Position numbers and translations under genes: made by a program. The notes under the pieces are model-generated. The model saw nothing but the letters and a program-made list of their open reading frames with translations, made no database searches and was not told the origin of the DNA. This document shows positions 2,525-34,559 of a DNA stretch of 64,000 nt, piece by piece (the stretch's first letter is position 1; each line of letters begins with the position of its first letter). Source of the DNA: Hyunsoonleella flava (lineage in GTDB: Bacteria > Bacteroidota > Bacteroidia > Flavobacteriales > Flavobacteriaceae); the NCBI RefSeq assembly GCF_004310325.1, contig NZ_SIRT01000002.1, forward strand, positions 62,001-126,000. Direction: 5' to 3'.

Positions 2525-4927
2525 TTATGTTTTAGATGTGAATTGAATTATTGCTTTTTCCATATCGTGATGCTCATTGTAGAGCTTCATTATTTCCTCA
2601 TTTTCCTGGCCATCGGTTAAGTAAGCTGCATAGACTTCTTTAGGAACTTCAAGCCGAAAGATGTTGCTTTCCTTCCCAATCTTGATAAACATTTCGGTGT
2701 ACTTCCGTGGTCCGGAAAGATTATTTTTGATGGACTTTAATTGGTTCAAGTCGTGGCTGGAAAGGTTGAGCCTTTTGACCAATTCGTTATAGCCTTTTTC
2801 ATTGTTTAGGCTGTAGACTACTTGCGTATTTTCTAGTATGCTGGCTGATGTGGAATTGTTTGGAAGCTGATTGATGGATTGTAGAATAATACCAATCGCA
2901 CCATTTTGTTTACGGATAGCTTGATAGTAGAATTCGACACTTTCCAGCACATTATCGAACTTCAATTGCTTTGCAAATTCATCGAATAGTATGATACCTT
3001 TTTCAGCTCTATTTTTCCATATAGTTCTTTGGATGGCTGACTTAATCAGCTTCAACATTACGGACAAGATTTCCTTATTGTCCTTGACTTCATCCAGTTC
3101 AAAAACAATCAATCTTTTATCCTCAATCTTATAGGTCTGGTCTTCGCTAACTTCAAATAGAAAACTATATAGACCATCGCCGACATATTCGGACATTACG
3201 TGCAAGAAGCTGGTAATATTGAAATAGTCGGGATGGATTTTTAAGGTGTTCAGAAGGTCTTTCTGATTCCGCTCTATAAAATTGTAAAAACCATCCAGCG
3301 AATGATTTTCTGAAGTATTGTTGTAATAATGACGCAGTATCTTTTTAACCGAAACCGATTGTGCTTTGGTCACTTTTAAATCTGAAGCGAACAGTTCAAA
3401 CAGGAAGACAGACAAGTCTTCCAAACGTTCAGGGGTCAGGTCATTCACATCGCTTATATAAAAAGGATTAATACCCAGATTTTTGCCACTTTCATAACGA
3501 AGCACCGTATATTTCTCAGGATAGAGTTTGGCAAATTTGGTGTAGGATCCACCAAGGTCAATAATGACTAGGCGGACACCACTCTCAAAATATTGGCGTA
3601 GAATGTTATTTGCCAAAAAGGACTTCCCTTCGCCAGTAGGTGCAAAAATGGCAAAGTTTCGTGCTTTGATACGCTTCTTGCGTTCGTCCCAAACGTCCTT
3701 TAGAACTGGAACGTTATGTTCTCTATCATTAAAGATAATTCCAGTAGCATCCGAGTTGTAGTTTGTATTATTAATAAACAAGCATAGTGCGTGTTTTAAA
3801 TCCGTTACATATAAATCGTTATTTGAAAAGTTGGAAGAAAAACAGCAGTAACTATTTAGTATATAGTTCTTCCGTTCCTCACCTCTTGGATAATATGGGA
3901 TAATATCCAGTTCCTTAAATTCAGTTTTGATTTTAGAACCGATTCGACTTAAATTTTCAGGGTTTTTATCCCAATAGACGATGTTGAGATGACCACGAAT
4001 AATCCGTGCATTGTCATCTGCATTGATTTGGTCGAGAATATGTTGAATTTTACCAAGTACCACTTTGTTCTGTGAACCGAAGTTGGAACTTTTGTTGAGT
4101 TCTTCAACTTTCTTATCTAGAAGCTTGCGCCACTTTTGTTTATCATCCAAATACAGGATTTGATTAACAATATGATTCTCATTAAGCGTAAGCCCTAAGC
4201 CATCAATAAACCCTTGATGAAACACGAAATCGTCAGAAGTGAATTTCTCATTGGTCTTGCTACTCTGTACACTTTCGCCAAAGCACAGTTCGCTATTGAT
4301 AGCCAGGGCATCAAAATGGTTTTCGCCAATATTGACGCTTTTCTTTTCTAATATGATGTCCGTATCAAAACCTTCATTGAATCCATTGAAATAACCATTT
4401 GTGAGGTGCTGAATGTCTTTCGCTTTAAGCTGGACAAAGGTCATTTTTCGGCTATTGTTTATAAAGGAAACCGAATCACTAACCGAGCCAATGAAGCTCT
4501 TAACGTTGTCATCTAATTGTTGAACAATCCCTTTAGAAACTTTACGAAAAGGGTTGACATATTTTGAATTATTTAGAGCCTTGTTCTTAGTGAGTGTAAA
4601 GAACAAAAAGCAACGATGTTCCATATAATCACGTCCTTTGAAATGCTCGTGTGTAGCTTTTTCTAAAAAAGTTGTTTTCGGCAATTCTTCTGAAGTGTAA
4701 CTCTTTTTAAGGTAGATATCCTGTTTTTGTACCACCGTGCCAATAGGTAAAGATTTTAAAGCCTGAAACCAAGCGCCGTGTATATCCTCAAAGTCTTTTT
4801 CTGATAGGGAATAAATTTCTGGTAGCGTTCCTTTATAGCACAGAACGACATTGCCATTATTGGCAAATATGATATTGTCCTGAACATCTGCAATAGGGTT
4901 ATATGCCGAAAGATTAATCTTGTTCAT
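2525..4927 (-). CDS. traG: TraG-family conjugation ATPase (VirB4 type)
   Basis: 800 residues, the usual size of VirB4-type ATPases that energise assembly of the mating channel. A Walker A motif (APTGEGKSFLANN) lies at about residues 430-442. A Walker B-like segment (GIILFDEFAK) is near residue 648, followed by the RKQNGAIGIILQS motif typical of this family (about residues 670-682). Its start overlaps the end of traF by 14 bp, which suggests translational coupling. The name follows Bacteroidota conjugative-transposon usage, in which TraG is VirB4-like and not the VirD4 coupling protein. Confidence 0.95.
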   Translation of the reverse strand: MNKINLSAYNPIADVQDNIIFANNGNVVLCYKGTLPEIYSLSEKDFEDIHGAWFQALKSLPIGTVVQKQDIYLKKSYTSEELPKTTFLEKATHEHFKGRDYMEHRCFLFFTLTKNKALNNSKYVNPFRKVSKGIVQQLDDNVKSFIGSVSDSVSFINNSRKMTFVQLKAKDIQHLTNGYFNGFNEGFDTDIILEKKSVNIGENHFDALAINSELCFGESVQSSKTNEKFTSDDFVFHQGFIDGLGLTLNENHIVNQILYLDDKQKWRKLLDKKVEELNKSSNFGSQNKVVLGKIQHILDQINADDNARIIRGHLNIVYWDKNPENLSRIGSKIKTEFKELDIIPYYPRGEERKNYILNSYCCFSSNFSNNDLYVTDLKHALCLFINNTNYNSDATGIIFNDREHNVPVLKDVWDERKKRIKARNFAIFAPTGEGKSFLANNILRQYFESGVRLVIIDLGGSYTKFAKLYPEKYTVLRYESGKNLGINPFYISDVNDLTPERLEDLSVFLFELFASDLKVTKAQSVSVKKILRHYYNNTSENHSLDGFYNFIERNQKDLLNTLKIHPDYFNITSFLHVMSEYVGDGLYSFLFEVSEDQTYKIEDKRLIVFELDEVKDNKEILSVMLKLIKSAIQRTIWKNRAEKGIILFDEFAKQLKFDNVLESVEFYYQAIRKQNGAIGIILQSINQLPNNSTSASILENTQVVYSLNNEKGYNELVKRLNLSSHDLNQLKSIKNNLSGPRKYTEMFIKIGKESNIFRLEVPKEVYAAYLTDGQENEEIMKLYNEHHDMEKAIIQFTSKT

Positions 4928-7846: not shown

Positions 7847-8509
7847 TCATTTCCTTTTATCCCCAGCACCTTTATCAAAGGCAATCAAATTAAACAGTTC
7901 TCGCATTCTGCTACGAACTCGATTGCCATAGCGTTCTTCCAATTCTTCAGCATTTAAGTTGGTGGTAGCGTGAGTTTTAATTTTATGTTTGGTATCGAGA
8001 TAAAGTTCATATCTGGATAAGAGCACTTCGCCCATTACGTTCAAATCTTTTCCATAAAACCGTCCAGCCGGTTCAACGCCCAAATCATCAAAGCAATAGA
8101 ATTTAGTATTGCCGTATTCTTCAACAGTTTTAAAGCCAAGGTGGTTAAAACCAAAAGTTACATTCCGGCAAGGAATCATTTCGTAAGGGCGTTGCAACGG
8201 AACTATGTGGCGAAGTAATTTCATAAGGCTGGTTTTACCACACCCAACAGGTCCAGAAAGTAAAATACCTTTGTCAATGTCAATACCGTAGGTAGCGCAG
8301 TTCTCTTTATCCTTAATGAAATATGAACAAAGTTTAAGCAGTATGTTTTTATCTTCTTCATAGATTCTGAATTTCTTGCCAAACAATAGTTTTCCTTTTG
8401 CATTCAGGTAAATCAAAATTTTTGGAAAGTCATAGACAACGCTTTTGCCGTCAAATTTTCCCAGTGAATATTCTACGCCACCTTCAATAATTTTAGAGGG
8501 GTTGTCCAT
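7847..8509 (-). CDS. DnaC/IstB-like AAA+ ATPase, probable helicase loader
   Basis: From the ATG at 8509 the protein has 220 residues. It carries a Walker A motif (SGPVGCGKTSLMK), a Walker B-like YCFDDLGVE, a sensor-type segment (THATTNLNAEEL) and an arginine-rich end (RYGNRVRSRM), as in DnaC/IstB ATPases. A longer frame to 8737 exists but would lie inside the preceding gene and encodes low-complexity Lys-rich sequence, so I chose 8509. The start overlaps the preceding initiator gene by 17 bp. Order initiator-then-loader is that of phage lambda O and P. Confidence 0.88.
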   Translation of the reverse strand: MDNPSKIIEGGVEYSLGKFDGKSVVYDFPKILIYLNAKGKLLFGKKFRIYEEDKNILLKLCSYFIKDKENCATYGIDIDKGILLSGPVGCGKTSLMKLLRHIVPLQRPYEMIPCRNVTFGFNHLGFKTVEEYGNTKFYCFDDLGVEPAGRFYGKDLNVMGEVLLSRYELYLDTKHKIKTHATTNLNAEELEERYGNRVRSRMRELFNLIAFDKGAGDKRK

Positions 8510-9245
8510 AATCTTTGTTTTTAGTGGTTCGCAAGTTGTCCTTGATTTGGGACGCTTGGTTTTTGTTTGCTTTGTTTTCTTCTTCGAAAAGCTCAGTTCT
8601 ATCCATCCAGTTTGTGGCCAAAGCTCGCCAATCACGAATTTGTTGACCATCGCTAGTTTGCCAGTTCCTAGTTTCATAATGCTCGTAGAATTTTTTTCCT
8701 TCATCAGCATTAAAACCTTTTTCAACAAAAAAATCAATTACGGCCTGCCAGCCCTTTGGCTGTTTTGTATAGTTTTCTTGTTTGATATTGTTTGTAGTAG
8801 ATACCAATGCTTGTCCACCTATGGGACGGTATGGGTCTACAACCTGTCCATTTATGGGATGGTGCTGTCCCACAACTGGTTCAGGTATGGGATAGTACTG
8901 TTCCGCAAGCTGTTCTAATGTGGGATTGTATCGTCCCATATCAGGTTCATCACTTGTCCCAATAATGGACATCTTGATTTTACTGCCCTTGTATGGATTG
9001 TTAGATGGGAAATAGGATAGATAAAGCCACGCGTCCAAATCCGTAACACAACGATGATAGGTGGATTTTGAGCCTATTTTAGCACAACGCATTAAATCCC
9101 TACGGTTTACATAAAATTCATCTGCAAACCGACTACTGTTCCATTCTTGAAACAGCGCCATATACAAGCTGATATGTGTGGGATTTAGGCGGTCATCAAA
9201 ATAGAACTTTTCAAAAGCCGCATTAAGTAGCTTTATATAGTTCAT
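8493..9245 (-). CDS. Winged-helix replication initiator-like protein with embedded iterons
   Basis: 250 residues. The N-terminal about 95 residues look like a winged-helix DNA-binding domain (LNPTHISLYMALFQEW, then the NRRDLMRCAKIGSKSTYHRC recognition region). A central part (about 98-142) consists of four 11-residue repeats with a Pro at a fixed position. The C-terminal part (GWQAVIDFFVEKGFNADEG to DWRALATNWM) resembles the end of DnaD- or phage-replication-type proteins. It follows the excisionase-like gene by 3 bp and overlaps the helicase-loader gene. The DNA encoding the central repeats forms four 33-bp iterons. Initiator function is inferred. Confidence 0.72.
   Translation of the reverse strand: MNYIKLLNAAFEKFYFDDRLNPTHISLYMALFQEWNSSRFADEFYVNRRDLMRCAKIGSKSTYHRCVTDLDAWLYLSYFPSNNPYKGSKIKMSIIGTSDEPDMGRYNPTLEQLAEQYYPIPEPVVGQHHPINGQVVDPYRPIGGQALVSTTNNIKQENYTKQPKGWQAVIDFFVEKGFNADEGKKFYEHYETRNWQTSDGQQIRDWRALATNWMDRTELFEEENKANKNQASQIKDNLRTTKNKDYGQPL
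8762..8806. other. A-rich tract beside the iterons, candidate unwinding element
   Basis: Immediately downstream of the iterons in the gene direction, about 45 bp is AT-rich (roughly a quarter G+C) and strongly A-rich on the coding strand. In lambda an equivalent A-rich region follows the iterons and is where strands open. Assignment here depends on the iteron interpretation. Confidence 0.4.
8821..8952. repeat. Four 33-bp iterons, each with an 18-bp (imperfect) palindrome
   Basis: Four direct repeats start at 8821, 8854, 8887 and 8920, exactly 33 bp apart. Each contains an 18-mer of the form TGGGA-N8-TCCCA: 8822-8839 (right arm degenerate), 8855-8872 (perfect), 8888-8905 (right arm TTCCG) and 8921-8938 (perfect). 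They lie inside the initiator-like gene, as lambda iterons lie inside gene O. They are candidate initiator binding sites and thus a candidate element origin. Confidence 0.75.
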
Positions 9246-9248
9246 TAC

Positions 9249-9533
9249 TTAAGAATTTGAACCGTGCTGCACACGGTTGGCGGTCATTATATTTTGAATT
9301 TCCTCGGCATCGTAGTAGATAATACCGCCTACTTTGGTATAGGGCAAAGTGCCATTGATACGAAGATTTTGCAAAGTACCTGGACTGACTTGTAACAAGT
9401 CCATAACCTCAGAAGATTTGAGATACCTTTTCAGTTTTACAGTAGCTTGTTTGGATAATAGTTTTTTGATGTCATCGAGTAATTCCATTTTGAAATCTCG
9501 AAGGTCGTCTGTGGTAATAATACTTGTGGGCAT
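9249..9533 (-). CDS. Excisionase-like helix-turn-helix protein (HTH_17/MerR-like)
   Basis: 94 residues. A Lys-rich N-terminal half precedes a compact winged HTH (YLKSSEVMDLLQVSPGTLQNLR, then NGTLPYTKVGGIIYYDAEEI), the layout of Xis2-type excisionases and HTH_17 proteins in Bacteroidota ICEs. It lies downstream of rteC and heads an operon with the initiator and loader genes. In CTnDOT the xis operon is switched on by RteC, which fits this context. It could be a transcription regulator only; that cannot be decided from sequence. Confidence 0.8.
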   Translation of the reverse strand: MPTSIITTDDLRDFKMELLDDIKKLLSKQATVKLKRYLKSSEVMDLLQVSPGTLQNLRINGTLPYTKVGGIIYYDAEEIQNIMTANRVQHGSNS

Positions 9534-9553
9534 AATAGAACGGTTTTAAAGAA

Positions 9554-9593
9554 AGAGGCTATCGCATCGCTATCAACTAATTTGATAGCCTCT
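9554..9593 (-). promoter_or_regulatory. Attenuator-like alternative hairpins in the xis leader
   Basis: In the leftward transcript, AGAGGCTATC (from 9593) pairs perfectly with GATAGCCTCT (to 9554), a 10-bp stem followed by the U-rich run TTTCTTT, as in an intrinsic terminator. A second, mutually exclusive stem of 8 bp (GCTATCAA with TTGATAGC, 9569-9589) uses the same first arm. The xis start is 20 nt downstream of the long stem. This is the layout of a transcription attenuator; the ligand or factor is unknown. Confidence 0.6.
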
Positions 9594-9655
9594 GACCTGA
9601 TTTGACTTTCGTTCTACAAATTTGAATAGCTTTAATGGATTTTATTCCCCAGTAC

Positions 9656-9808
9656 GACCGTACTACGGTCAAAATTTAACATTTTGAAATTTGATTAGTT
9701 TTAGGGTGTTTTGAGGTGTTTGCACTATTAATTGAACTTTAAATTGTACCAAAATTTATGGAAAAGAGGATGAGAATCTAATTACCGTAGGTCAACCGTA
9801 GTACGGTC
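9656..9808. promoter_or_regulatory. Two CCGTA/TACGG palindromes upstream of xis, candidate RteC operators
   Basis: GACCGTA-C-TACGGTC at 9656-9670 and AACCGTA-G-TACGGTC at 9794-9808 are near-identical 15-mers, the first a perfect inverted repeat, 138 bp apart. A further half-site ACCGTAG is at 9784-9790. They lie between rteC and the xis-like start (123 and 261 bp upstream). RteC of CTnDOT is reported to bind inverted half-sites upstream of the excision operon, so these are the best candidates here. The rest of the 9534-9853 gap shows no gene. Confidence 0.65.
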
Positions 9809-9853
9809 TTATTTTAGCAGATAAAAGGATAGGTAAATGAGAATGGTTAGCGA

Positions 9854-10690
9854 CTATTCCTCGCTTTTATCCATTTCTGAAAGAAGGGAAGCAATCAGCT
9901 GGTCAAGGAACAATGTTCGGCTGTTTTTACGATTTTTGATGTCTTGAAAGGTTTTGTAGATGTCTTTGGGTTCAAAATCAAATATCTGTTGCAACTTTCT
10001 AGAAAGTTGCATAATACTTTTATTGTCCTGCTTCCCGAGACCTTTTGCGCATAGTGCGTAGAGCAGCTCAACCCAATCTGTATTTGTAAATGGCCAAATA
10101 ATTTTTTCAGTAGGTTTTATATTCACACTAAAACCATTCAATCTATTTTTAATAGAATGTTTCTTTTGGTCCATATAATTAATAAGGGAAGTATAGGCCT
10201 TGAACTTTCCTAAAAGCATATCTCTTGGCGTACAAAAATCAGGGTCTTGAAAATAGAATTTAGAAGTAGTGATGTGATACTTATCGAGATGGTCTCTTGT
10301 GTAATATGTCTTATCAAAATGGGTTGCCCCAGATTTTACATATTGGCCAAAGTCAAGATTATAAAGAAAAAAGCGATTTAGTTTACCAATCTTCTTTTTT
10401 ACAAATTTTAGTTGGGCAGCTCTATCAGCTTTAGGAAATTGAATTTCAAAAGAATGAATCTCTGAGAAGTATATAAGTTTAATTAATGGTACTTGTTTTA
10501 TTTTTTTAAAGAAATCAATTTCATCATCAACGCTTTTAAAATCATTAGCCAAAATATTTCTTTTAAAAACGGTAAGCAAATTTCTACTTAACTCGATGGA
10601 ACGATAGGATAGTTCCAAAATCGGAAGATTTTCGAGCCTTATCCCGTCTAATTCTACGAGAAGATTTTCGCCTAGTGATTCTAAATCCAT
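9854..10690 (-). CDS. rteC: RteC-like regulator of element excision
   Basis: 278 residues, the normal RteC length. The family pattern is visible: IDFFKKIKQVPLIKLIYFSEIHSFE in the centre-left region (about residues 62-86) and a Tyr/Asp/His-rich stretch ending YYTRDHLDKYHITTSKFYFQ (about 131-152), followed by a winged-helix-like C-terminal domain. In CTnDOT RteC activates the xis operon and so couples a signal to excision and transfer. Here it lies directly upstream of the xis-like operon on the same strand. No rteA/rteB pair is present in this window, so its own trigger may differ. Confidence 0.87.
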   Translation of the reverse strand: MDLESLGENLLVELDGIRLENLPILELSYRSIELSRNLLTVFKRNILANDFKSVDDEIDFFKKIKQVPLIKLIYFSEIHSFEIQFPKADRAAQLKFVKKKIGKLNRFFLYNLDFGQYVKSGATHFDKTYYTRDHLDKYHITTSKFYFQDPDFCTPRDMLLGKFKAYTSLINYMDQKKHSIKNRLNGFSVNIKPTEKIIWPFTNTDWVELLYALCAKGLGKQDNKSIMQLSRKLQQIFDFEPKDIYKTFQDIKNRKNSRTLFLDQLIASLLSEMDKSEE

Positions 10691-15654: not shown

Positions 15655-16854
15655 TTAATGTGAGTGTTCTGCTTCGCCTTTTTTCATTTCTGCCATTAAA
15701 TAGTAACCGTTGTTTAAGGCATATTTGGCATTCGATTTTTGTTCCGTTAGAAAATCAATAGGAATCCATTCCCCGTCTTTAGCCCCCTTTGTTATTTCAT
15801 TAGGTGTAAAAGCCCAATCGTTACCTTCCTTTTCAGCTAAAAACACAAAAAATCGGTTACCATCAGCGGCTATGGCACTTTCGGGTATAGCCAACGTCTT
15901 ATTGTTATCCGTTTGTATGCGTCCCTGAATGTACATTCCGGGTATCAAGTTGCCTTCCTTGTTCTCAATTTCTGCGTGAACGTGTATCGCTTTCGGGTTC
16001 TGCTCAAAAGTTTTTCCTACGGAATAGATTTCCGCGGTCAGTTCCTGCCCTTGATTGGATTGGACATTAAACGTTACTTTTTGACCTTCCTTTACCCTAT
16101 AGACATCCTTTTCAAAGACCATCAAATCGGCGTGCACGTGGTGGGTGTCCACAATTTCCATTAGGTCAGTCTGGGGTTCTACATACTGCCCTGTTTTGAC
16201 TTCTACCTTTTGTACAAATCCTTCGATGGGACTTCTAAGCGCCACACGCTGGTAAATCGTTCCGTTTCTTACGCCCGATGCACTAACGTTAAGTTGTTGC
16301 AGTTGGGCTTCAAGACCTTTTGCCATACTTCGGGATGCTTGGTATTCAGCTTCTGCCTTTTGGAAATTGGCACCGCTTCCTACACCCGCATCGTAAAGGG
16401 TTTTTTGTCGTTCATATTCCTTTTTCAGAAACTGACTATTACTAAAAGCATTTAAGTAGTCTGTCTGTTTCTGAATGATGTTGGGATGCGAGAGGTAAGC
16501 GACTGTTTGCCCTTTATTGACCTTATCACCCTCGATAACCTCGATGGAAACCACGTTTGCACCTACAACTGTTGTTATGGTGGCCTCGTTCTGGGGAGGG
16601 ACTTCCAGTTGACCGTTCGCTTCCACATACCCGCTCATATTTCGCATTTGTAAGGTGTCGATTTTCATTTGTAATGCATCGAACTGTTTTGCTGTGAGCA
16701 TCACTTCCTCAGCTTCGCCTTCTGCGTGGGCTTCTTCCGTTTCAGAATTTCCTTTACTGTTTTCAGCTGACTCTGATTTAGAATCACCACAAGAGGTTAA
16801 CCCTAAGAGCATAACCAATAAACCGATGACTGTATATTTAGATAGATTTTTCAT
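15655..16854 (-). CDS. RND periplasmic adaptor (CzcB/CusB type), lipoprotein
   Basis: 399 residues. A signal peptide ends in a lipobox with Cys22 (LGLTSC). A Glu/His-rich stretch follows (EEAHAEGEAEE), then the lipoyl/barrel-sandwich halves flanking a helical hairpin (about residues 130-200), and a beta-barrel domain. It links the inner-membrane RND pump to the outer-membrane channel. It overlaps the RND-TolC fusion gene by one base. No heavy-metal-binding domain is present, unlike the second adaptor at 21675. Confidence 0.92.
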   Translation of the reverse strand: MKNLSKYTVIGLLVMLLGLTSCGDSKSESAENSKGNSETEEAHAEGEAEEVMLTAKQFDALQMKIDTLQMRNMSGYVEANGQLEVPPQNEATITTVVGANVVSIEVIEGDKVNKGQTVAYLSHPNIIQKQTDYLNAFSNSQFLKKEYERQKTLYDAGVGSGANFQKAEAEYQASRSMAKGLEAQLQQLNVSASGVRNGTIYQRVALRSPIEGFVQKVEVKTGQYVEPQTDLMEIVDTHHVHADLMVFEKDVYRVKEGQKVTFNVQSNQGQELTAEIYSVGKTFEQNPKAIHVHAEIENKEGNLIPGMYIQGRIQTDNNKTLAIPESAIAADGNRFFVFLAEKEGNDWAFTPNEITKGAKDGEWIPIDFLTEQKSNAKYALNNGYYLMAEMKKGEAEHSH

Positions 16855-19800
16855 TATTGTTTAAAATATTGTAGTTCGAAAACTGATTTTAGATAATTGT
16901 CGAGCGCATCCAGCGCATCCATTTCGGTATTTATGGCATCCCTTATTATTTGTGTAAATGCTGCATAGTCCACTGCACCTTCCTTGTAGGCAAGTAGTGC
17001 GCCTCTGCGTTGCTCTTCGGCAAGGGGTAAGGCTTTATTTTTATAAAATTGCCAAGATGTTTCCCACTTTTGATAGGACTTTACGGCCTGTTGATATTCG
17101 GATTGCAATTGGCGTTGTGTATAATCAGCATTAGTCCTTGCAATTTCGCCGTCAATTTTAGCGGCCTTGGCTTGGCTACGTTCCGTACCAGAAAATAAAG
17201 GAATGGAAATACCAGCCTGATAAGTGTAAAACCCGCTATTGCCGTTCACTCTTTGAAGTCCGCCCTGAAGATTAAACTTGGGAAGCAAGTCAGCACGAGC
17301 TGCGTCATAATTTGCCTCAGCTTCATCAATTTGCTTTTGCGAAAGTTTCAGTTTGGGATGATTTTCCACTGTTGTGGGTATGCCCAATACGGCAAATTCA
17401 CTTTCGTCAAGCGATTTAGGTACAGTATAGAAAGTGTCTGAAACTAACCATAGGTTTAGTTTTTGAAGGGCAATGGCGTAATCGCTTTCGGCCTGTTGCA
17501 ATTTGTTGCGGATTTGCAAGGCTTGATTGGTAGCTGATGAATATTCCAAGCGTGAAATGGCTTCTACCTCATAATTGAGGGCAATGGCTTTTTCAAATTG
17601 TGAATAGATAGAATCCAGTTCTTGGTACAGTTCAAATTTTTGCCTTTGCTGATAGGCTTGCGACCAAGCTTTTTTAACTTCCTGTTCTATTTGAAGTTCA
17701 GAAAGGTCAAGAGCTGTTTCGGCCAAAGCGATACGTTGCTTTTGCAGACGCTTTTTCGCACCTATGCCGAATAAGTTGATATTCTGTTGCCCTAAGCCAA
17801 CCAATGTATAAATACCCTGACCATCCGATATTTCCTCGCCACCTGTAAACACTTGGGTGTTGCCAAAGTCGTAAGCAGTCCCCTTTAATGCAGTTTGTCT
17901 TTGAATTTCCAACTGTTTCGTTTTCAAGAGCGGATAATTTTCCTTAGAAACTTCTACCGCTTTTTCCAATAATATTACCGGCAGCGAATCATTCTGTGGA
18001 ACTTGCTGCGCTTTAGCGAAAGCAGAAGTAAATAGCAAACAAACTACTGCCATAGCGGTAGCAAATTTTGGATTCAATTTTGCCTTTCGTTCAGAACGTT
18101 TCTCGACCCATTGATAAAAAATGGGCAGAATAAACAGCGTTAAAAGGGTTGAAGTTATCAATCCACCAATAACCACGGTAGCCAAGGGTCTTTGCACTTC
18201 AGCCCCTGCGGATGCTGAAATCGCCATAGGCAAAAAACCAAGAATATCGGTAAAGGCAGTAAGCATAATCGGGCGTATCCTACGTTTTGTGCCTTCCACA
18301 ATCCTGTCTTTTAAGTTTGTTACGCCTTCTTCCTTCAGTTCATTCAGACCGCTTATCATTACCAATCCATTCAGTACAGCTACCCCAAAGAGCACAATAA
18401 AACCGACCCCTGCCGAAATACTAAAAGGCATATCCCGAAGCCATAGAGCGAACACGCCACCTATGGTCGCCATAGGTATTGCTACATAAATCATCAAGGT
18501 TTGCGGAAAGGATTTTAGGGCAAAGTAAATCAGAATGAATATGAGCAATAAAGCTATTGGCACAACAGTCTGTAACCTACTGCTGGCACGTTCGAGGTTT
18601 TCAAAAGCCCCACCATAACGAATGTAATATCCAGGTGGTAATTCAAATTGGGCATCTAATTTATCCTGAATTTCTTCTACTACAGATTTAACATCACGGT
18701 CACGAATATTGATACCTACATACGTTCGTCTATTTGTATTGTCTCTACTTATTTGCATTGGACCAGGCTCATAACTCACTTCTGCAATTTCACGTAGCGG
18801 AATTTGTGAACCATTTGGAAGGTTTATGAACAGGTTTTTAATGTCAGCAATGCTTTCCCGATTCTCTTTTTGTAGGCGAACTACCAAATCGAACCGCTTT
18901 TCCCCCTCGAAAATTACGCCTGCTTTTCCACCTGCAAATGCAGCTTGTAACACACTATTGAGTTGGTTGATTTCAAGACCGTATTGCGCGAGCTTGTTAC
19001 GATTATAGTTAACCGTAATTTGCGGAAGGCCATCGGTAGCCTCTACTTTCATATCCGCAACACCCGGAACAGTTGCAATGATTTTACCCATTTCTTCCGC
19101 TTTGCTTGCCAGTATGTCCAAATCTTCCCCAAACAGTTTAATAGCAACATCTTCACGTACACCCGTAAGTAGTTCGTTAAAACGCATTTCTATAGGCTGG
19201 GTAAATTCATAATTGACCCCGGGTACGATGCTTATGGCATCCTTCATTTTTTCGACCAGTTCATCTTTGCTTTCGGCGGATGTCCATTCATCACTTGGTT
19301 TAAGGATGACGAAGACATCGGCAATGTCCATCGGCATCGGGTCAGTAGGTACATCGGCCACACCGATACGACTGATGATAGTTTCCACCTCTGGAAATTC
19401 CGCCTTAACTATTTGCTCTATTTTTGTGGTTGTTTCTATGGTTTCTGAAAGGGAACTTCCGGGTTTTAGGATGGCGTGAAACGCAATATCGCCTTCATCC
19501 AACTGTGGGATAAATTCGCCGCCCATTCTGGTAAAGGCAAAAATGGCAACTGCAAAAAGAGCAATAGCGATACCTATAACCATCTTCCCTTTAGTAAGCG
19601 ATTTGGTCAACAGCGGCTCGTATTTTCTTTCAATCCAATGGACAAACTTATCGCCGTAAGACTTTTTTTCGGATTTCGGCGGTCTTAAGAATAACGCTGA
19701 AATCATCGGAACATAGGTCAGACAAAGCAACATTGCACCAATCATAGCAAAGATGAAAGTTAAAGCCATAGGCTGAAACATCTTACCTTCAACACCTTCC

Positions 19801-21197
19801 AAAGCTAAAATGGGTAGGAAGACAATAAGAATTATAAGCTGGCCGAAGAAAGCGGCGTTCATCATCTTTTTAGAAGCCTTTGCAGCGATTTCGTCCCTCG
19901 TTTCAGAACTCACAGCCTTCTTTTTAACTACATAAGAATACATTAGAAAAACAGTACTTTCTACGATGATGACCGCACCGTCCACAATGATTCCAAAGTC
20001 AATCGCCCCCAAACTCATCAGGTTCGCCCATACGTCAAAAACGTTCATTAGTATGAATGCAAACAAAAGCGATAGCGGAATAGTGGATGCTACTATAAGA
20101 CCACCACGCCAATTTCCCAAGAGCAAAACCAAAACAAAGATTACGATAAGCCCACCTTCCAAAAGGTTTCCAGTTACCGTTCCCGTTGTTTCCGCAATCA
20201 ATTCACTTCGGTCAAGAAATGGTTTTATACTAACACCTTTAGGAAGTGATTGCTGAATCTGTTCCATACGTTGGATCACGTTTTCGATAACTTCGTTGGA
20301 ATTAGCCCCTTTAAGCATCAAAATCATTCCGCCAACAGCTTCGCCTTTGCCATCTTTTGTCAGCGCACCGTAACGGACGGCACTTCCTATACTCACCTTA
20401 CCAACATCTTTAATCTTGATAGGAATACCATTGACCGTTTTTACGACCATATTTTCGATATCCGAAACGGTTCTGGCAAGCCCTTCGCCACGGATGAAAT
20501 TAGCTTGATGGTTTCGCTCGATATAGGCACCGCCCGTATTCTGATTATTGTTTTCCAAAGCGGAAAACACCTCAGATATTGTAATTCCGATTGCTCGAAG
20601 TTCATCAGGGTCAACGGCTACTTCGTATTGTTTTTTATTTCCGCCAAAAGCATTTACTTCCACAACGCCGGTAACCATTGCCATTTGTCTGCGAACTATC
20701 CAGTCCTGAATCGTTCTCAATTCCGTTGCAGAATACTCGCCCTTGTGCTCAGCATCGACTTCAAGGGTATATTGGTAGATTTCGCCCAGTCCCGTTGAAA
20801 TGGGTCCCATAGACGGTTCACCAAAACCCATAGGGATTTGTTCCTGTACCTCTGTCAGTTTTTCCGCAACAAGCTGTCTGGGTAAATAGGTTCCTACATC
20901 ATCGTCGAAGACAATAGTTACAACGGAAAGACCAAAGCGGGAAACCGAACGGATTTCCTTGACATTGGGCAGGTTGCTCATTGCCACCTCGACAGGATAG
21001 GTTACAAATTGCTCAATATCCTCTGTCCCCAGATTGGGCGATTGTGTAATGACCTGTACCTGATTATTGGTAATATCTGGCACGGCATCAATAGGAACTT
21101 GGGTCATACTATAGATACCTGCACCAATTAATGCAAGTGTGAGCAGACCAATAATAAATTTGTTATTGATTGAAAAATCAATGATTTTATTAATCAT
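16854..21197 (-). CDS. CzcA/CusA-type RND metal pump fused to a TolC-like channel
   Basis: 1447 residues. Residues 1 to about 1040 are a complete heavy-metal RND pump (N-terminal VPIDAVPDITNNQVQV motif, DFGIIVDGAVIIVE in helix 4, C-terminal helices ending ILPIFYQWVEKRSERK). Residues about 1064-1447 are a TolC/OEP protein with two helical-repeat halves. Between them lies a new signal-peptide-like segment (about 1044-1063, ending SAFAKA before QQ). The fusion joins an inner-membrane pump to an outer-membrane channel, so cleavage at about Ala1063 is expected. The adaptor gene follows with a one-base overlap. The substrate is probably Zn/Co/Cd. Confidence 0.93.
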   Translation of the reverse strand: MINKIIDFSINNKFIIGLLTLALIGAGIYSMTQVPIDAVPDITNNQVQVITQSPNLGTEDIEQFVTYPVEVAMSNLPNVKEIRSVSRFGLSVVTIVFDDDVGTYLPRQLVAEKLTEVQEQIPMGFGEPSMGPISTGLGEIYQYTLEVDAEHKGEYSATELRTIQDWIVRRQMAMVTGVVEVNAFGGNKKQYEVAVDPDELRAIGITISEVFSALENNNQNTGGAYIERNHQANFIRGEGLARTVSDIENMVVKTVNGIPIKIKDVGKVSIGSAVRYGALTKDGKGEAVGGMILMLKGANSNEVIENVIQRMEQIQQSLPKGVSIKPFLDRSELIAETTGTVTGNLLEGGLIVIFVLVLLLGNWRGGLIVASTIPLSLLFAFILMNVFDVWANLMSLGAIDFGIIVDGAVIIVESTVFLMYSYVVKKKAVSSETRDEIAAKASKKMMNAAFFGQLIILIVFLPILALEGVEGKMFQPMALTFIFAMIGAMLLCLTYVPMISALFLRPPKSEKKSYGDKFVHWIERKYEPLLTKSLTKGKMVIGIAIALFAVAIFAFTRMGGEFIPQLDEGDIAFHAILKPGSSLSETIETTTKIEQIVKAEFPEVETIISRIGVADVPTDPMPMDIADVFVILKPSDEWTSAESKDELVEKMKDAISIVPGVNYEFTQPIEMRFNELLTGVREDVAIKLFGEDLDILASKAEEMGKIIATVPGVADMKVEATDGLPQITVNYNRNKLAQYGLEINQLNSVLQAAFAGGKAGVIFEGEKRFDLVVRLQKENRESIADIKNLFINLPNGSQIPLREIAEVSYEPGPMQISRDNTNRRTYVGINIRDRDVKSVVEEIQDKLDAQFELPPGYYIRYGGAFENLERASSRLQTVVPIALLLIFILIYFALKSFPQTLMIYVAIPMATIGGVFALWLRDMPFSISAGVGFIVLFGVAVLNGLVMISGLNELKEEGVTNLKDRIVEGTKRRIRPIMLTAFTDILGFLPMAISASAGAEVQRPLATVVIGGLITSTLLTLFILPIFYQWVEKRSERKAKLNPKFATAMAVVCLLFTSAFAKAQQVPQNDSLPVILLEKAVEVSKENYPLLKTKQLEIQRQTALKGTAYDFGNTQVFTGGEEISDGQGIYTLVGLGQQNINLFGIGAKKRLQKQRIALAETALDLSELQIEQEVKKAWSQAYQQRQKFELYQELDSIYSQFEKAIALNYEVEAISRLEYSSATNQALQIRNKLQQAESDYAIALQKLNLWLVSDTFYTVPKSLDESEFAVLGIPTTVENHPKLKLSQKQIDEAEANYDAARADLLPKFNLQGGLQRVNGNSGFYTYQAGISIPLFSGTERSQAKAAKIDGEIARTNADYTQRQLQSEYQQAVKSYQKWETSWQFYKNKALPLAEEQRRGALLAYKEGAVDYAAFTQIIRDAINTEMDALDALDNYLKSVFELQYFKQ

Positions 21198-21209
21198 AGA
21201 TATGGGTGT

Positions 21210-21324
21210 TAATTCAGTTTAAATTCTCTGTGGGCACATTACAGAAATGCAATGCACTATTTTGACATATCCAAAATAAGGACACGTCAAAACAGGATAT
21301 AGCTATCCTATGAAAACTGAATTA
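21210..21324. repeat. 11-bp inverted repeat bracketing the RND-TolC promoter region
   Basis: TAATTCAGTTT at 21210-21220 and AAACTGAATTA at 21314-21324 are perfect complements separated by 93 bp. They enclose the imperfect palindrome at 21260-21292. The second arm overlaps the stop of the upstream gene. Chance cannot be excluded in AT-rich DNA. Confidence 0.3.
21260..21292 (-). promoter_or_regulatory. Imperfect 13-7-13 operator upstream of the RND-TolC gene
   Basis: TTTTGACATATCC (21260-21272) and GGACACGTCAAAA (21280-21292) are complementary at 11 of 13 positions with a 7-nt spacer. They lie 63-95 bp before the start of the RND-TolC fusion in a 124-bp gap. The sequence differs from the TGCAAC-type boxes, so a different regulator is likely. 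Confidence 0.5.
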
Positions 21325-21630
21325 TACCTGTGGGGGCTGTAAAAGGGAATGAAAAAAGTTGTTTTCAAAACCATCGAAATGGTCGAAGTACTCTTGTGAA
21401 ATCTTAGGTTGATACGGTTCGAATGAAGTTATGCCAAAATCTATAGTGTGAACGTGGCAACAATGACAATGACAAAAGGGCGAACATAATTCACAATCTT
21501 GGTCGTGCTCACTATCATAGTCAATTACGGAAACTACTTGGGAATCTTCATTAATGTTTCCTGTATCGCTACAGGGCACACCATTAAGTGCTAAGAAGTA
21601 AATTGCTAATATGAGTGTAAAGTATTTCAA
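21322..21630 (-). CDS. DUF6660 family Cys/His-rich secreted protein
   Basis: 102 residues from a TTG start. A hydrophobic N-terminus ends near Cys20 (lipobox-like GVPC). An unusually dense cluster follows at residues 46-61: CELC, then FCHCHCCHVH, with six Cys and three His. This would bind copper or zinc outside the cytoplasm. A -7 box TATCTTTG (21642-21635) ends 5 bp before the start codon, so the mRNA may be almost leaderless. A Fur-type box overlaps the promoter. The gene ends 124 bp before the RND-TolC gene. Confidence 0.78.
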   Translation of the reverse strand: MKYFTLILAIYFLALNGVPCSDTGNINEDSQVVSVIDYDSEHDQDCELCSPFCHCHCCHVHTIDFGITSFEPYQPKISQEYFDHFDGFENNFFHSLLQPPQV

Positions 21631-21634
21631 GCTA

Positions 21635-21669
21635 CAAAGATAAAAAGATTTTCGTGCAACTGTGTTGCA
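21635..21669 (-). promoter_or_regulatory. Fur-family box (perfect 6-3-6 repeat) and -7 element of the DUF6660 gene
   Basis: TGCAAC-TGT-GTTGCA at 21655-21669 is a perfect inverted repeat. TATCTTTG on the reverse strand (21642-21635) matches TAnnTTTG. The spacing is identical to the weaker box in front of the STAS operon, which supports one shared regulator, presumably the Fur-family protein encoded at 15216-15632. Confidence 0.6.
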
Positions 21670-21674
21670 AAGTA

Positions 21675-23447
21675 TTATTTCAATGAATCAACTACACTTC
21701 CACAAGTAAGCATCTGTTCGCCATAATAAGGGTTACTGATGACTTTATCTTTACTTATCCAAAACGCCCCTCTGTTGTTATTTGCCATTGGGCATTTCTG
21801 AATATATACCTTTGGGTTCAACCCTTTTATAGTCTTTACAATCGGTATAAAATTTTGGTTCAAAACCACAAAATGGCTACGCTGATTTTCGATGTTATCA
21901 CTTTCGTTTATTGACTTCAACATTTTTTTGATTTTGGAAATGTGGGCTTGTTCCATTTTACCCAAATCCGAATCAGAAACTGGCTCTAATATTTCTAAGG
22001 TTTCCTGTGAGAAAGACGAAACTTTTTGAGCATCACCAGCTACAAAGACATCTTTCATTTTAAGATATGGCGTTAAAGCAGACTGAAACGCAATTTGAAC
22101 TGTCTTTGGTAGTTCCATTTTCATTGTTGAACTACTAGTGGTTTCGTTACCTGTATTCTGCATACCTAAGTGTCCTTCGTGTCCTGTCATTGTTTTTCCG
22201 TCTGATTTATTCATCATTGACTTCTTACCCTGTAATTGTGCAGCTGCATCCACCGTGAAAGTCCCATTAGTTACTATTTCATCGCCTTCTTGTAATCCGG
22301 AAGCGACCATAAAAATATCACCAACTCGATTGCCAAGCGTTACTTCCTGCATTTCAAAAATGGGTTCATTTGGATTTGTCTTGATGTAAACTAATGAGCG
22401 TTCGCCTGTCCACATTACCGCACTCGCTGGAATGCGAAGTTGTACTTCTGAACTAGTTGATTTGCTTTTGATTTTGCCTGTGACGAACATCCCTGGCTTA
22501 AAAATCCCTTTGTTGTTTTTCAAATTGGCTCGAACCACGACAGTTCTCGTTTGAGTATTCAGAACGGGGTCTATGAATGAAACCGTAGCATCAAATATTT
22601 CATTGGGATAAGCATTGGTTGTAACCTTGATTTTCTGACCTTTCTTGAATTCTGAAATTTGGTTTTCATAAGCATCGAATTCTGCCCATACCAAATTTAG
22701 ATTGCTCACCTTTACGATGGGTTGCCCTTGCTTTACGTAATCGCCTTCAGAAGCCATCTTTTCAGATACCGTACCGCTAACCGTTGCGTATATGGGAAAG
22801 TTTTCTTTAACCTTCCCTGATTCTTCGATACTATTAATTTGACTTTCCGATAGCTTCCAAAGTTTAAGTTTATTGCGTACCGCTTTATATAATTCTGGTT
22901 GCGATGCTTTAAGGGAAGCTGCAGTTATCAATTCTTGCTGAGCCGCTACTAAATTTGGCGCATAAATGGTTGCCAAAAGTTGCCCTTTCCTTACTTCCTG
23001 ACCCTCAAAGTTGACATTGAGCCGTTCAATCCTACCATCAAAATAACTCGCTTGAATGGCGTTTTCCTCTTCATTCATTTTGATTTTTCCTGAAAGCGAA
23101 ATCATATTTTCGCTGCCTGCCGATGCATTTCCTACAGTAGTGGTTTGGATGTTTGCCAATGCCATTGCATTTTTTGTCATCTTTATTTCATTCATTGCAA
23201 GGCCATCAGCACTAGATTCTGCCGGAATTAAATCCATACCGCATATAGGACAGTCGCCTGGTTCTGGTTGCATAATTTGTGGATGCATAGAGCACGTCCA
23301 CATTTGTTCAGCACTTTCGGCAGAATGGTCGTGCGTTTCGGTCATTGCCGCCTCGTCTTTTTCGGTAGAATTGCCACCAAAAATGAGCCACCCACCTAAA
23401 AGTCCTATCAAAGCTGCGATACCGATGTATAAAATGTTTTTGTTCAT
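21675..23447 (-). CDS. CusB-type RND adaptor with heavy-metal-binding and DUF3347 domains
   Basis: 590 residues. One membrane/signal segment (about 5-24) and a His-rich linker lead to a heavy-metal-binding domain at 50-75 (TCSMHP to CPICGMDL). The adaptor core follows, then a Met/His-rich linker (MNKSDGKTMTGHEGH) and a C-terminal DUF3347 domain ending in a CPMA-type motif and MLTCG. The adaptor delivers Cu(I)/Ag(I) from periplasm to the CusA pump. The same C-terminal motif recurs in the separate DUF3347 protein at 27204. It lies 6 bp after the DUF305 gene. Confidence 0.92.
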   Translation of the reverse strand: MNKNILYIGIAALIGLLGGWLIFGGNSTEKDEAAMTETHDHSAESAEQMWTCSMHPQIMQPEPGDCPICGMDLIPAESSADGLAMNEIKMTKNAMALANIQTTTVGNASAGSENMISLSGKIKMNEEENAIQASYFDGRIERLNVNFEGQEVRKGQLLATIYAPNLVAAQQELITAASLKASQPELYKAVRNKLKLWKLSESQINSIEESGKVKENFPIYATVSGTVSEKMASEGDYVKQGQPIVKVSNLNLVWAEFDAYENQISEFKKGQKIKVTTNAYPNEIFDATVSFIDPVLNTQTRTVVVRANLKNNKGIFKPGMFVTGKIKSKSTSSEVQLRIPASAVMWTGERSLVYIKTNPNEPIFEMQEVTLGNRVGDIFMVASGLQEGDEIVTNGTFTVDAAAQLQGKKSMMNKSDGKTMTGHEGHLGMQNTGNETTSSSTMKMELPKTVQIAFQSALTPYLKMKDVFVAGDAQKVSSFSQETLEILEPVSDSDLGKMEQAHISKIKKMLKSINESDNIENQRSHFVVLNQNFIPIVKTIKGLNPKVYIQKCPMANNNRGAFWISKDKVISNPYYGEQMLTCGSVVDSLK

Positions 23448-23453
23448 ATCAAA

Positions 23454-23942
23454 TTATTTATTTTCTAATCGTTCAATCATCTGCTTCATTTCTTCAATTT
23501 CCTTCTTTTGTGCCTTGATGATATCCTGTGCCAGTTTCTTCACTTCAGGGTCTTTAATATCAGCACGTTCACTCGTTAAAATCGCAATAGAGTGATGGGG
23601 AATCATAGCTTTCATCCAGAGAACGTCCCCAACTGTTGTCTTTTGTTCTCTTACTAAAGTCAAAGCCCCAACAAATAGGATTAGGCTGCCTACCAAAATG
23701 GCAATATTCTTCTTTTTATCGGTATACATATTCCGCATAAACAACCACATTATTACGGCCATAGTCGCTATGCCAAGACATACCATATAAAACCGGGTCA
23801 AGCTAAAAAATACGTGGTCTAAAGAATATGTGTTTAAGTACATTGTGATGTACATAGCAATGAATGAGCAACCGAGCATCAAGTAAAATTTAGTGTACTT
23901 ACTTAATCCATTGTTCTCGTTTTTGTGTTCTTGTGAATTCAT
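23454..23942 (-). CDS. DUF305 membrane protein
   Basis: 162 residues with three membrane segments (about 22-36, 47-69 and 76-94) and a C-terminal DUF305-type part with the MIPHHSIAI motif (about 111-119) and a helical Glu/Lys-rich end. DUF305 proteins have a ferritin-like helical fold, and the HH motif suggests copper binding. The location between CopA (26-bp gap) and CusB supports a role in copper handling at the membrane. Confidence 0.85.
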   Translation of the reverse strand: MNSQEHKNENNGLSKYTKFYLMLGCSFIAMYITMYLNTYSLDHVFFSLTRFYMVCLGIATMAVIMWLFMRNMYTDKKKNIAILVGSLILFVGALTLVREQKTTVGDVLWMKAMIPHHSIAILTSERADIKDPEVKKLAQDIIKAQKKEIEEMKQMIERLENK

Positions 23943-23968
23943 AAATTTTGGTTTTTATAGTTAAAGAA

Positions 23969-26470: not shown

Positions 26471-26474
26471 TTTT

Positions 26475-27197: not shown

Positions 27198-27203
27198 AGT
27201 TGA

Positions 27204-33344: not shown

Positions 33345-34559
33345 TTAAAAATTGACCACACTCTCTAAGGCATCATCAGCATCTTTATGGATGAAATTTG
33401 CTTGGTAGTTAATTGTTGTTTTAAGGTCGGTATGTCGATATAATTTTTGAAGCATTAATGGATGTATATTATCGGCGGCAATATTACCAAAGGAATGACG
33501 AGCTATATGCATCGTTACCTTTTTTTGAATACCAGCTCTTTTTGTAATTTTCTTTAAATGGTCGTTGAACTTTTTATTTGCAACTTTCTTTTTTCTGTAG
33601 ATATCCTTAGCATCGGTCAAATCGGCTTTTTTCATTTCTGGAAACACAAAATCATCATCACTTCTTTTGTCTGAAATATATTGCAGCAAGATTTTTTCCA
33701 CTTTTTCTGGAATCTTCAAGGATAGTAATTTTGAGTTCTTACCCATTCTATAATGTAACCTGCCGTCATAGATTTGCGACCATCTTGTAAAGAGCACATC
33801 GGACACACGCATTCCGGCAAAATAGAAACTAAACAGCCAGACATTCAGCGAATGCTGTTCCATATCGGTAAGCTCAGAAACATTATCGAGTGCTTGTATT
33901 TCTTTTCCCGTTAGTCCTGTCTTTGTAGTTTCAGGAAACTTTATTTTAAATTTTCCTGTACCAAACGGGTATAGTTCTTTGCTTACTACTTTATCCTTTA
34001 TTGCCCGATTGAAAAGTAATCGAATCAAAACCATAACGTTCATAGCAGTAGTTTCCGTAAGTGAACAAGAACCTTTTAGGTAGATTTTAAATTTTTTGAG
34101 AAAGCGTTCATCTATTTCTTGAAAAGTGAGGTGTCGCGCTTTGCAATATTTTTCTATATAACTGAGCCAAGCAGAATCTGTAGAATGGCGATTAATTTTA
34201 TTCTCAGCTTCAAGAGCTTCGAGATGTTCATCCGCAAAATCAAAGAAAGTGAGTTTGGAAGTTGGCTTGTAAATTTCCTTTTTAATTTGCCGTGCGGTTG
34301 CATCTTTATTGTTGGTCTGTAAAACAATCAAACCTTTTCTTGCTTCTGAAAGTTTTGATGTCAAAAGGTTGTTTAGACTTTCGGCATTTGGATGTGATTT
34401 CTTGACCTTAAGATTTTTTGTGTCCCAATCTTCTAACTCAATATAGTGACCTATGTGTTTGTAAGTGGAACGACGGTCTTTAGTTATCCTTACCGCAAGT
34501 GGATATTGTCCCTTAGCGTTAGGTTTTTTGCGAAGTATTATTTTTGCACTTGTTGACAT
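33345..34559 (-). CDS. int: Tyrosine site-specific recombinase (ICE integrase)
   Basis: 404 residues: an N-terminal arm-type DNA-binding domain (1-95), a SAM-like core-binding domain (about 105-200) and a catalytic domain with Arg251 (GMRVSD), Lys274, His351 and Arg354 (HIARHSF), His376 (YRHTD) and nucleophile Tyr385 (TTINYQ). All catalytic residues are present. It is encoded 210 bp from the tRNA-Leu fragment with repeated arm-type sites between, so it is the enzyme that inserts this element. Confidence 0.96.
   Translation of the reverse strand: MSTSAKIILRKKPNAKGQYPLAVRITKDRRSTYKHIGHYIELEDWDTKNLKVKKSHPNAESLNNLLTSKLSEARKGLIVLQTNNKDATARQIKKEIYKPTSKLTFFDFADEHLEALEAENKINRHSTDSAWLSYIEKYCKARHLTFQEIDERFLKKFKIYLKGSCSLTETTAMNVMVLIRLLFNRAIKDKVVSKELYPFGTGKFKIKFPETTKTGLTGKEIQALDNVSELTDMEQHSLNVWLFSFYFAGMRVSDVLFTRWSQIYDGRLHYRMGKNSKLLSLKIPEKVEKILLQYISDKRSDDDFVFPEMKKADLTDAKDIYRKKKVANKKFNDHLKKITKRAGIQKKVTMHIARHSFGNIAADNIHPLMLQKLYRHTDLKTTINYQANFIHKDADDALESVVNF

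Follow-up and report, generated by a model that had tools for sequence, protein, structure and literature searches.

A stretch of 64,000 nucleotides from Hyunsoonleella flava (contig NZ_SIRT01000002.1, positions 62,001 to 126,000; hereafter the window) carries an integrative and conjugative element (ICE) in which an initiator-like gene, here named rep, and its downstream neighbor probably form a replication module. In this module an origin would lie inside the gene for its own initiator and would be followed by the gene for a helicase loader, a build like that of lambda ori, O and P, and the module would copy the excised circle of the element. The evidence is computational and comprises constraint on DNA rather than protein, phasing of the repeats, predicted protein architecture, conservation of the operon, relatives in phages and on a plasmid, and the co-occurrence of upstream palindromes with one type of RteC regulator. 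Genes for a helix-turn-helix (HTH) protein, Rep and the loader adjoin in the window with no other gene between them. The features of the locus are as follows.

8493..9245, minus strand: rep, 250 amino acids, with a predicted winged helix, iteron-encoded disordered linker, helical C-terminal domain and conserved tail
8961..9245, minus strand: N-terminal winged-helix domain, amino acids 1-95; AlphaFold2 predicted local distance difference test (pLDDT) of 77-94 by block over amino acids 1-90, and Foldseek matches
8805..8969, minus strand: iteron region, codons 93-147, with half-sites phased at 11 bp and a higher-order unit of 33 bp
8921..8938, unstranded: palindromic iteron, complete, 0 mismatches to the degenerate consensus
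8888..8905, unstranded: palindromic iteron with a weaker right arm, TTCCG, 0 mismatches to the degenerate consensus
8855..8872, unstranded: palindromic iteron, complete, 0 mismatches to the degenerate consensus
8822..8839, unstranded: degenerate fourth unit, left arm only, 3 mismatches to the consensus
8954..8961, unstranded: outer half-site TTGTCCCA, read from the sequence
8766..8804, minus strand: A-rich AAAC tract, codons 148-160, candidate unwinding region; synonymous identity of 0.95 in the first set of relatives and 0.97 in the second
8679..8765, minus strand: further DNA-constrained stretch, codons 161-189; synonymous identity 0.91 (second set)
8574..8753, minus strand: predicted helical C-terminal domain, amino acids 165-224; pLDDT 74-86 by block over amino acids 161-220
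8496..8540, minus strand: nearly invariant C-terminal tail, amino acids 236-250, proposed loader dock; tail motif in 70 of 70 and 79 of 80 loci
7847..8509, minus strand: DnaC/DnaI-like helicase loader gene, 220 amino acids; match to the PHROG DnaC-like helicase loader profile (1e-16) and PDB fold match 5he8
9249..9533, minus strand: HTH_17 gene upstream of rep in the same orientation, encoding an excisionase-like DNA-binding protein; Pfam HTH_17 6.3e-9, PHROG excisionase 6.2e-8
9854..10690, minus strand: rteC; Pfam RteC 1.5e-61

Constraint on DNA and phasing of the repeats

Relatives of rep were gathered in two sets. Of 299 genomes of the same family that were searched with the protein, 94 gave matches, and the first set holds 70 rep genes, namely 30 loci from this search and 40 picked among the matches listed. 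Two types are seen among these genes: type A (L001-L030 and L070) is like the window's rep, and type B (L031-L069) has other repeats than type A, often units of 11 or 12 bp such as GGTACAAGTAGT. A profile scan of 84,980 species genomes found at least 581 confirmed places, and the best 80 of these make up the second set. Closest among these 80 are Aquimarina algicola (96%) and Yeosuana marina (95%); most of the 80 belong to genera that we take to be Flavobacteriaceae, with exceptions such as Membranihabitans and a metagenome-assembled genome of Cytophagaceae. Seventeen of the 80 second-set genes are identical to a first-set gene. Identities were computed on 24 distinct genes of 250 amino acids from L001-L030, after duplicates and two genes of 239 amino acids had been dropped, and on 45 genes of the same length among the 60 distinct second-set genes that are absent from the first set. 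When 395 genomes of the phylum were searched with a type B protein, 47 gave matches, 42 of them in the window's class and 5 outside it; many of these matches are short frames of about 100 amino acids that align with the winged helix alone, and the full module is therefore rarer than 47 in 395 genomes.

An alignment of homologues was proposed in the earlier note as a check on whether the repeats are kept at the DNA level more than at the protein level, and it came out on the side of DNA. Among the 24 distinct genes, the iteron codons 93-147 have an amino acid identity of 0.73 and a synonymous identity of 0.87, and the A-rich codons 148-160 have values of 0.74 and 0.95, compared with 0.88 and 0.51 for codons 51-92. 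Synonymous identity by block over codons 93-160 is 0.77-0.95 in these genes and 0.82-0.97 in the 45 further genes, in which it is 0.62 at codons 16-50 and 0.53 at codons 51-92. In both sets, 11-codon blocks of the iteron region range from 0.63 to 0.84 in amino acids and from 0.77 to 0.96 at synonymous sites, the winged-helix codons before the iterons reach a synonymous identity of only about 0.5-0.66, and the iteron stretch is among the least conserved parts of Rep in amino acids. In the 45 genes, the share of third positions with a conservation of at least 90% is 0.68 over codons 104-160, against 0.18 over codons 16-92 and 0.21 over codons 190-222. Since synonymous identity is high where amino acid identity is low, it is the DNA itself that is constrained. 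The constrained DNA covers about 290 bp (8679-8969) together with the 3' end of rep where it overlaps the start of the loader gene. At that end, codons 223-250 (8496-8579) have a synonymous identity of 0.91-0.93 that reaches past the 17-nt loader overlap, and perhaps hold translation signals or a second DNA element.

The repeats are also phased. Relative to synonymous shuffles, type A genes have excess self-similarity at lags of 33, 44, 11 and 22, then 23, 28, 34 and 39; type B genes at 11 first, then 23, 34 and 22; and the second set at 33, 44, 22 and 11, then 28, 39, 34 and 38. The 11-bp period is about one helical turn and is not divisible by 3, so that it is not explained by a repeat in the protein; its smallest in-frame multiple is 33. 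Repeated 7-mers in the gene middles number 689, versus 215 expected from synonymous shuffles of 66 distinct genes, and the excess is seen at no more than 15 of 300 shuffles in 44 of these genes (23 of 27 type A and 21 of 39 type B). In the window's own rep there are 8 repeated 7-mers against a mean of 2.0, a count reached in 1 of 300 synonymous shuffles. The pattern TGGGA-N8-TCCCA exceeds shuffles (25 or fewer of 500) in 19 of 24 type A genes and in 0 of 6 other genes tested.

The iteron consensus TGGGAYNGTRYYGTYCCR was written by the analyst from the window's own sites. With up to 3 mismatches it has 9 matches in the window versus 2.25 expected, a number reached by 0 of 100 shuffles; both strands are covered, and each palindrome is counted twice. 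The earlier description of four 33-bp repeats, each with an 18-bp palindrome, holds for the spacing and for three palindromes, but the fourth unit retains its left arm only. A repeat-finding program run on the window did not report the iteron family. No DnaA box (TTWTNCACA) lies in 7847-10690 and the window as a whole has 8 against 11.9 expected, Rfam has no match in window positions 1-36000, and a sigma-70 promoter scan gave 5 sites, no excess over a shuffle mean of 7.2. The AAAC count is 330 against 251 in synonymous shuffles, a weak effect reached at 15 or fewer of 300 shuffles in 7 of 66 genes.

The loader, the Rep protein and their relatives

The downstream gene was confirmed in the form in which it had been proposed, as a loader gene that overlaps rep by 17 bp, with its ATG 17 nt within the 3' end of rep. 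By its profile match, its predicted AAA+ fold and its P-loop (Walker A) pattern, it has the marks of a DnaC/DnaI-type loader. Its model is well formed (pLDDT 78.9; predicted template modeling score, pTM, 0.78), and its first PDB fold match is 5he8, titled 'Bacterial initiation protein' (E 1.7e-5), which is presumably S. aureus DnaI. The NCBIfam DnaI model matches 2 of 42 loader members. The Walker A pattern occurs in the next open reading frame of 68 of the 70 first-set loci; no such frame was picked up in L068 and L069.

The C-terminal tail of Rep travels with this loader. In addition to all 70 first-set loci, the tail motif is present in a relative on a Marivirga plasmid and in the viral loci L123-L126, and in all of these, the 70 included, the loader match has an identity of at least 41%. 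Seven phage loci (6 distinct, since L127 and L128 are the same) have a loader match of at most 28.2% or none, and all seven lack the motif. The one second-set locus without it, L196, has a truncated frame of 165 amino acids. Because tail motif and loader match co-occur, the tail is proposed to be a loader dock. The codons of the tail double as the start of the loader gene in type A, but loci whose loader begins 42-86 nt downstream (L032, L040, L048, L056 and L058) have the tail as well.

Window Rep has no Pfam or NCBIfam match at E <= 1, and sequence searches of Pfam, NCBIfam and solved structures returned nothing useful. An AlphaFold2 model built on a 58-member alignment has a mean pLDDT of 71.5 and bears out the winged-helix gene of the earlier note, with the winged helix at amino acids 1-95. 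Over amino acids 101-160 the pLDDT falls to 39-55, and the iteron-encoded linker there is probably disordered and free to vary in amino acids. A Foldseek comparison of Rep with viral models gave 28 matches at E <= 0.001, among them replication initiators, replisome organizers, a DnaD-domain protein, the replication protein of Tenacibaculum phage Gundel_1 and many unnamed proteins. Among PDB folds, ranks 3, 5, 6, 11 and 22 are 4pql, 5kbj and 4pt7 (E 0.07-0.18, weak), titled as a DNA-binding protein, a Rep-DNA complex and an initiator, which we take to be RepA_N proteins; 4pql and 5kbj are among the first matches of the winged-helix fold, at a weak E of 0.07-0.14. The 58 relatives have matches to 15 families at E <= 0.1, none of which is RepA_N, and window Rep has no match to RepA_N either. 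Of these 58 members, 49 match phrog_28809 and 42 match phrog_15768, both listed with function unknown in PHROG, and one each matches phrog_270 and phrog_428, replication initiation protein. Eight of the 70 first-set relatives (L040, L041, L043, L048, L049, L054, L062 and L068, read from their sequences) are 157-176 amino acids long and lack the helical domain, and they keep the winged helix, the tail and the downstream loader. A pattern test for the missing domain lists ten, of which L031 and L070 look like pattern misses.

In the phage collection the sole relatives are 11 records of Polaribacter phage Freya, whose gp55 is 41% identical to Rep over 106 columns of the winged helix (E 4e-27). 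Directly after it lies gp56, which is annotated as a DnaC-like helicase loader; RecT and NinB are encoded in the same region. Like the window module, the Freya pair combines a related winged helix with repeats in the middle of the gene (12-bp units), an AAAC-rich run and an adjacent DnaC-like loader; unlike it, gp55 has another C-terminus without the tail motif, and the loader is distant (27%). A scan of viral contigs with the single protein found no Rep relative, and a profile scan of IMG/VR found 10 contigs that encode one. Four of these match over most or all of the length and have a similar loader adjoining, and six share only the winged helix, the repeats and the A-rich run with Rep. Repeated 7-mers exceed shuffles in 7 of the 10, and the top lags in nine distinct phage genes are 33 and 12. 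The phage relatives L127-L132 have 12-bp-type repeats and a different C-terminus, and in L127/L128 the next gene encodes a 610-amino-acid P-loop protein in place of the short loader.

In the plasmid collection, the sole Rep relative lies on the 25-kb circular Marivirga plasmid p1, which is typed as non-mobilizable. It is full length (31% in the profile alignment, E 6e-51), with a relative of the HTH gene upstream and a relative of the loader gene downstream that crosses the record start. The origin cassette and the cassette of C-terminus and loader thus appear to be exchangeable.

The conjugative element and its RteC-type palindromes

The element in the window has the parts of an ICE with a CTnDOT-like conjugation system of the B type (type IV secretion system B, T4SS-B), namely a tyrosine integrase, a TraG-type ATPase, a coupling protein and RteC, together with a putative relaxase (DUF5712). 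A VirB2-type pilin match is weak and below the curated cut-off. The names TraJ, TraK and relaxase are taken from position and likeness, and the relaxase candidate is the DUF5712 protein. The further features needed here are the following.

2525..4927, minus strand: TraG/VirB4-type conjugation ATPase of the same ICE; Pfam P-loop_TraG 3.1e-61
33345..34559, minus strand: tyrosine integrase, just beyond which the ICE probably ends; Pfam Phage_integrase 1e-15
9658..9668, unstranded: palindrome CCGTACTACGG, candidate RteC operator, which co-occurs with the RteC type
9796..9806, unstranded: palindrome CCGTAGTACGG, candidate RteC operator, 138 bp from the copy at 9658..9668

The setting recurs among relatives. 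The loader and HTH genes accompany rep in 70 of 70 and 80 of 80 loci, and rteC does so in 68 of 70 and 73 of 80. In seven of nine chosen elements, each examined over at least 40 kb, TraG and TraJ lie within 20 kb of the module, and six of these also have TraK there.

Other genes were observed as well. Upstream of the window in the same ICE (L074:4416-13867) is a defence cargo of the phosphorothioation type, with matches to SspC, SspD, DndB, SspA/DndA and PbeA. Positions 15655-32698 hold a metal efflux cargo of P-type ATPase, CusB/HlyD-type and AcrB/CzcA-type proteins, assigned by Pfam for 21675-32698 and by reading open reading frames for the remainder. Beyond the integrase, 58142-59344 encodes an HD-domain protein with the transmembrane domain of Pycsar effectors (PycTM).

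Between rteC and the HTH gene are the two copies of the palindrome CCGTASTACGG (type 1). In the first set, 20 loci encode an RteC with an identity of 55% or more to that of the window, and all 20 have type 1; of the 50 others, among them two without an RteC match, none has it. The 41 first-set loci with RteC below 35% have a second palindrome, CCCAASTTGGG (type 2), in 19 cases and neither type in 22. All 28 copies of type 2 in the 70 loci (395 kb) lie no more than 420 bp upstream of the HTH gene, and in nine loci they form pairs 125-127 bp apart. The same test on 58 distinct second-set upstream regions that are absent from the first set gave type 1 in 34 of 34 regions with RteC at 55% or more and in 2 of 3 at 35-55%; below 35%, type 2 was present in 9 of 14 and neither in 5, and where RteC was not found, type 2 was present in 2 of 7. 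No region among the 58 has both types, and all 106 palindromes of the 80 second-set loci sit in the upstream stretch. This pattern fits binding of RteC to the upstream palindromes and control of the HTH-rep-loader operon by it. Because the palindromes match the RteC type, joint control of excision and replication by RteC is suggested, and the match offers a sequence code for RteC operators.

Known systems, alternative explanations and significance

The earlier note likened the layout to lambda, in which four 18-bp iterons lie in the middle of gene O (record positions 39034-39118, about codons 117-145 of O), followed by an A-rich run and by gene P, which overlaps O by starting 4 nt inside it. 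P is the helicase loader. The plan stands, in that iterons conserved as DNA lie within the putative initiator gene and the loader gene is directly downstream, but no detectable homology with O goes with it. The profile comparison that the earlier note had called for aligned the 58-member Rep profile with O over 1 column (hhalign, E 0.44), no Pfam match was found, and the candidate assignment of Rep to the Phage_rep_O/lambda O family was rejected on these grounds. Unlike lambda, the window module has an AAA+ DnaC/DnaI-like loader, an 11-bp iteron register and an rteC-linked operon in an ICE. Furthermore, the plan is not confined to lambda, since it is also found in pSK41 rep.

For this staphylococcal RepA_N plasmid, one study (PMC5703833) describes a Rep with a winged-HTH N-terminal domain, four Rep boxes placed centrally in rep and a separate C-terminal domain. 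The study also reports that the linker is origin-encoded and dispensable as protein, and that Rep contacts DnaG. The window's Rep follows the same plan of winged HTH, central boxes, linker and C-domain; unlike pSK41, the window module has a loader gene next door, its fold match to RepA_N is weak and a RepA_N Pfam match is lacking. Similarly, a review (PMC5704250) states that some integrative and mobilizable elements (IMEs) of Firmicutes, Tn6104 and streptococcal ones, carry a prophage-type replisome organizer with DnaC, and suggests that the pair could serve maintenance of the IME after excision. Those elements are mobilizable and from Firmicutes, whereas the window's is conjugative, RteC-linked and from Bacteroidota, and the likeness is one of gene content.

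The excision operon of CTnDOT has, to our knowledge, no initiator and no loader. RteC of CTnDOT is reported to activate excision functions including Xis2c (PMC5729914; PMC10865816), and the second of these papers presents CTn214 as an amplified circle from a CTnDOT-like element and discusses it in terms of btgA. Passages of papers on flavobacterial and related ICEs name RteC and no such initiator or loader (PMC6491836, PMC5458099, PMC6316836). A search of open-licence PMC full text found no report of an initiator/loader origin of a Bacteroidota ICE. Overall, the plan is already known from lambda, from pSK41 and, as an organizer with DnaC, from IMEs of Firmicutes, and what appears to be new is its setting in a Bacteroidota ICE.

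The proposed mechanism would begin with binding of the Rep winged helix to the helically phased sites inside its own gene, in their 11-bp register and 33-bp units. The complex of Rep and origin would then open the neighboring A-rich stretch, and the C-terminal tail would recruit the DnaC/DnaI-like loader, the product of the next gene, which overlaps rep; the loader in turn would put the host's replicative helicase on the opened DNA. RteC would couple these events to excision, and the circular intermediate would be copied, in theta fashion. As the operon adjoins rteC behind palindromes that match the RteC type, replication is probably switched on together with excision. From these elements we infer that the excised circle may replicate autonomously.

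A number of observations weigh against this mechanism. In the protein search, 205 of the 299 family genomes have no match to Rep, and the counts above are not independent events, because the genes are related. High synonymous identity is also found at codons 161-189 and 223-250 and, less strongly, at codons 1-15, and the block 93-160 ranks only 30th among 250 circular placements. TGGGA-N8-TCCCA occurs 3 times in window rep against a mean of 1.7, which 60 of 500 synonymous shuffles reach, and no excess of repeated 7-mers over shuffles is seen in 18 of 39 type B genes or in three of the ten viral contigs (L123, L125 and L126). The A-rich tract noted after the iterons is present and conserved as DNA, but it is not richer in A than codon shuffles: only 4 of 73 genes stand out at 5 or fewer of 100 shuffles, codons explain the richness, and the idea that the tract is more than codon composition was rejected. 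The Rep model has a low pTM of 0.40, TM-scores among the viral fold matches listed do not exceed 0.39, and no PDB fold matches Rep at E <= 0.001, the first being winged helices of RbkR and ORC. The loader's other listed fold matches, and its sequence matches among solved structures, are general AAA+ ATPases. Two of the nine elements (G153 and G157) have no TraG, TraJ or TraK within 20 kb, and the lack of homology with lambda O belongs here as well.

Some of these points would suit a purely regulatory role, in which Rep is only a transcription factor with operators inside its own gene and the AAA+ partner is an IstB-like recombination helper. Freya gp55 is annotated as a 'transcriptional regulator', the PDB fold matches of Rep include MarR-type regulators, the loader matches are mostly general AAA+ proteins, and the HTH and RteC regulators adjoin. 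We nevertheless consider such a role unlikely: no other gene stands between HTH, rep and loader in the window, the first fold match of the loader is a bacterial initiation protein and its PHROG match a DnaC-like loader, no IstB model is among the Pfam matches listed, the Freya relative sits beside an annotated DnaC-like loader in a RecT/NinB region, and replication proteins are numerous among the named viral fold matches. A role in conjugation is also improbable. Rep and the loader might deliver the host's helicase to the strand that is nicked or transferred, or might initiate synthesis of the second strand in the recipient, and the regular presence of the module in conjugative elements, together with the coupling protein and putative relaxase of the window's own element, is in keeping with this. 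The relatives in a phage and on a plasmid typed as non-mobilizable are found where conjugation is not an evident purpose, however, and some 27 kb separates the iterons from the putative relaxase gene in the window's element.

Two further explanations concern the repeats and the origin of the module. The 33-bp spacing keeps the reading frame and gives an 11-residue pattern, as had been pointed out at the outset, and the repetitive DNA could in principle be a by-product of a protein feature. This is very unlikely, given that synonymous identity is far above that of the preceding codons while amino acid identity is among the lowest, that the periods of 11, 22 and 44 bp, which are in excess, do not fit the reading frame, and that the low pLDDT falls on the repeat stretch. 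It is harder still to credit that the module is a captured phage fragment without a present role. Phage relatives do share the winged helix, and most also share the repeats and the A-rich tract, and one of the 80 second-set genes is truncated (L196); against this stand the loader and HTH genes alongside rep in every locus of both sets, which overlap by the 17 identical genes, and the strong amino acid constraint on the winged helix and tail. The replication module thus remains the probable explanation.

A broader proposal, which we offer tentatively and with somewhat less than even confidence, is that flavobacterial ICEs of this class are facultative plasmids. According to it, RteC would act at paired palindromes whose spacing is a fixed number of helical turns, switching on one operon and thereby triggering both excision and the in-gene origin. 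The module would consist of two exchangeable cassettes, an origin cassette of winged helix, iterons and A-rich tract that is shared with phages and a helicase cassette of tail and loader, and the 33-bp unit, as 3 x 11 bp, would reconcile reading frame and helical phase.

Such ICEs are commonly portrayed as passengers that replicate as part of the chromosome and exist outside it only briefly. Self-copying after excision, if true, would account for a conserved operon in which rep matches no Pfam or NCBIfam model, and the analysis provides an exact DNA target of about 290 bp. It would also change how the stability, copy number, transfer rate and host range of these elements in Bacteroidota are viewed.

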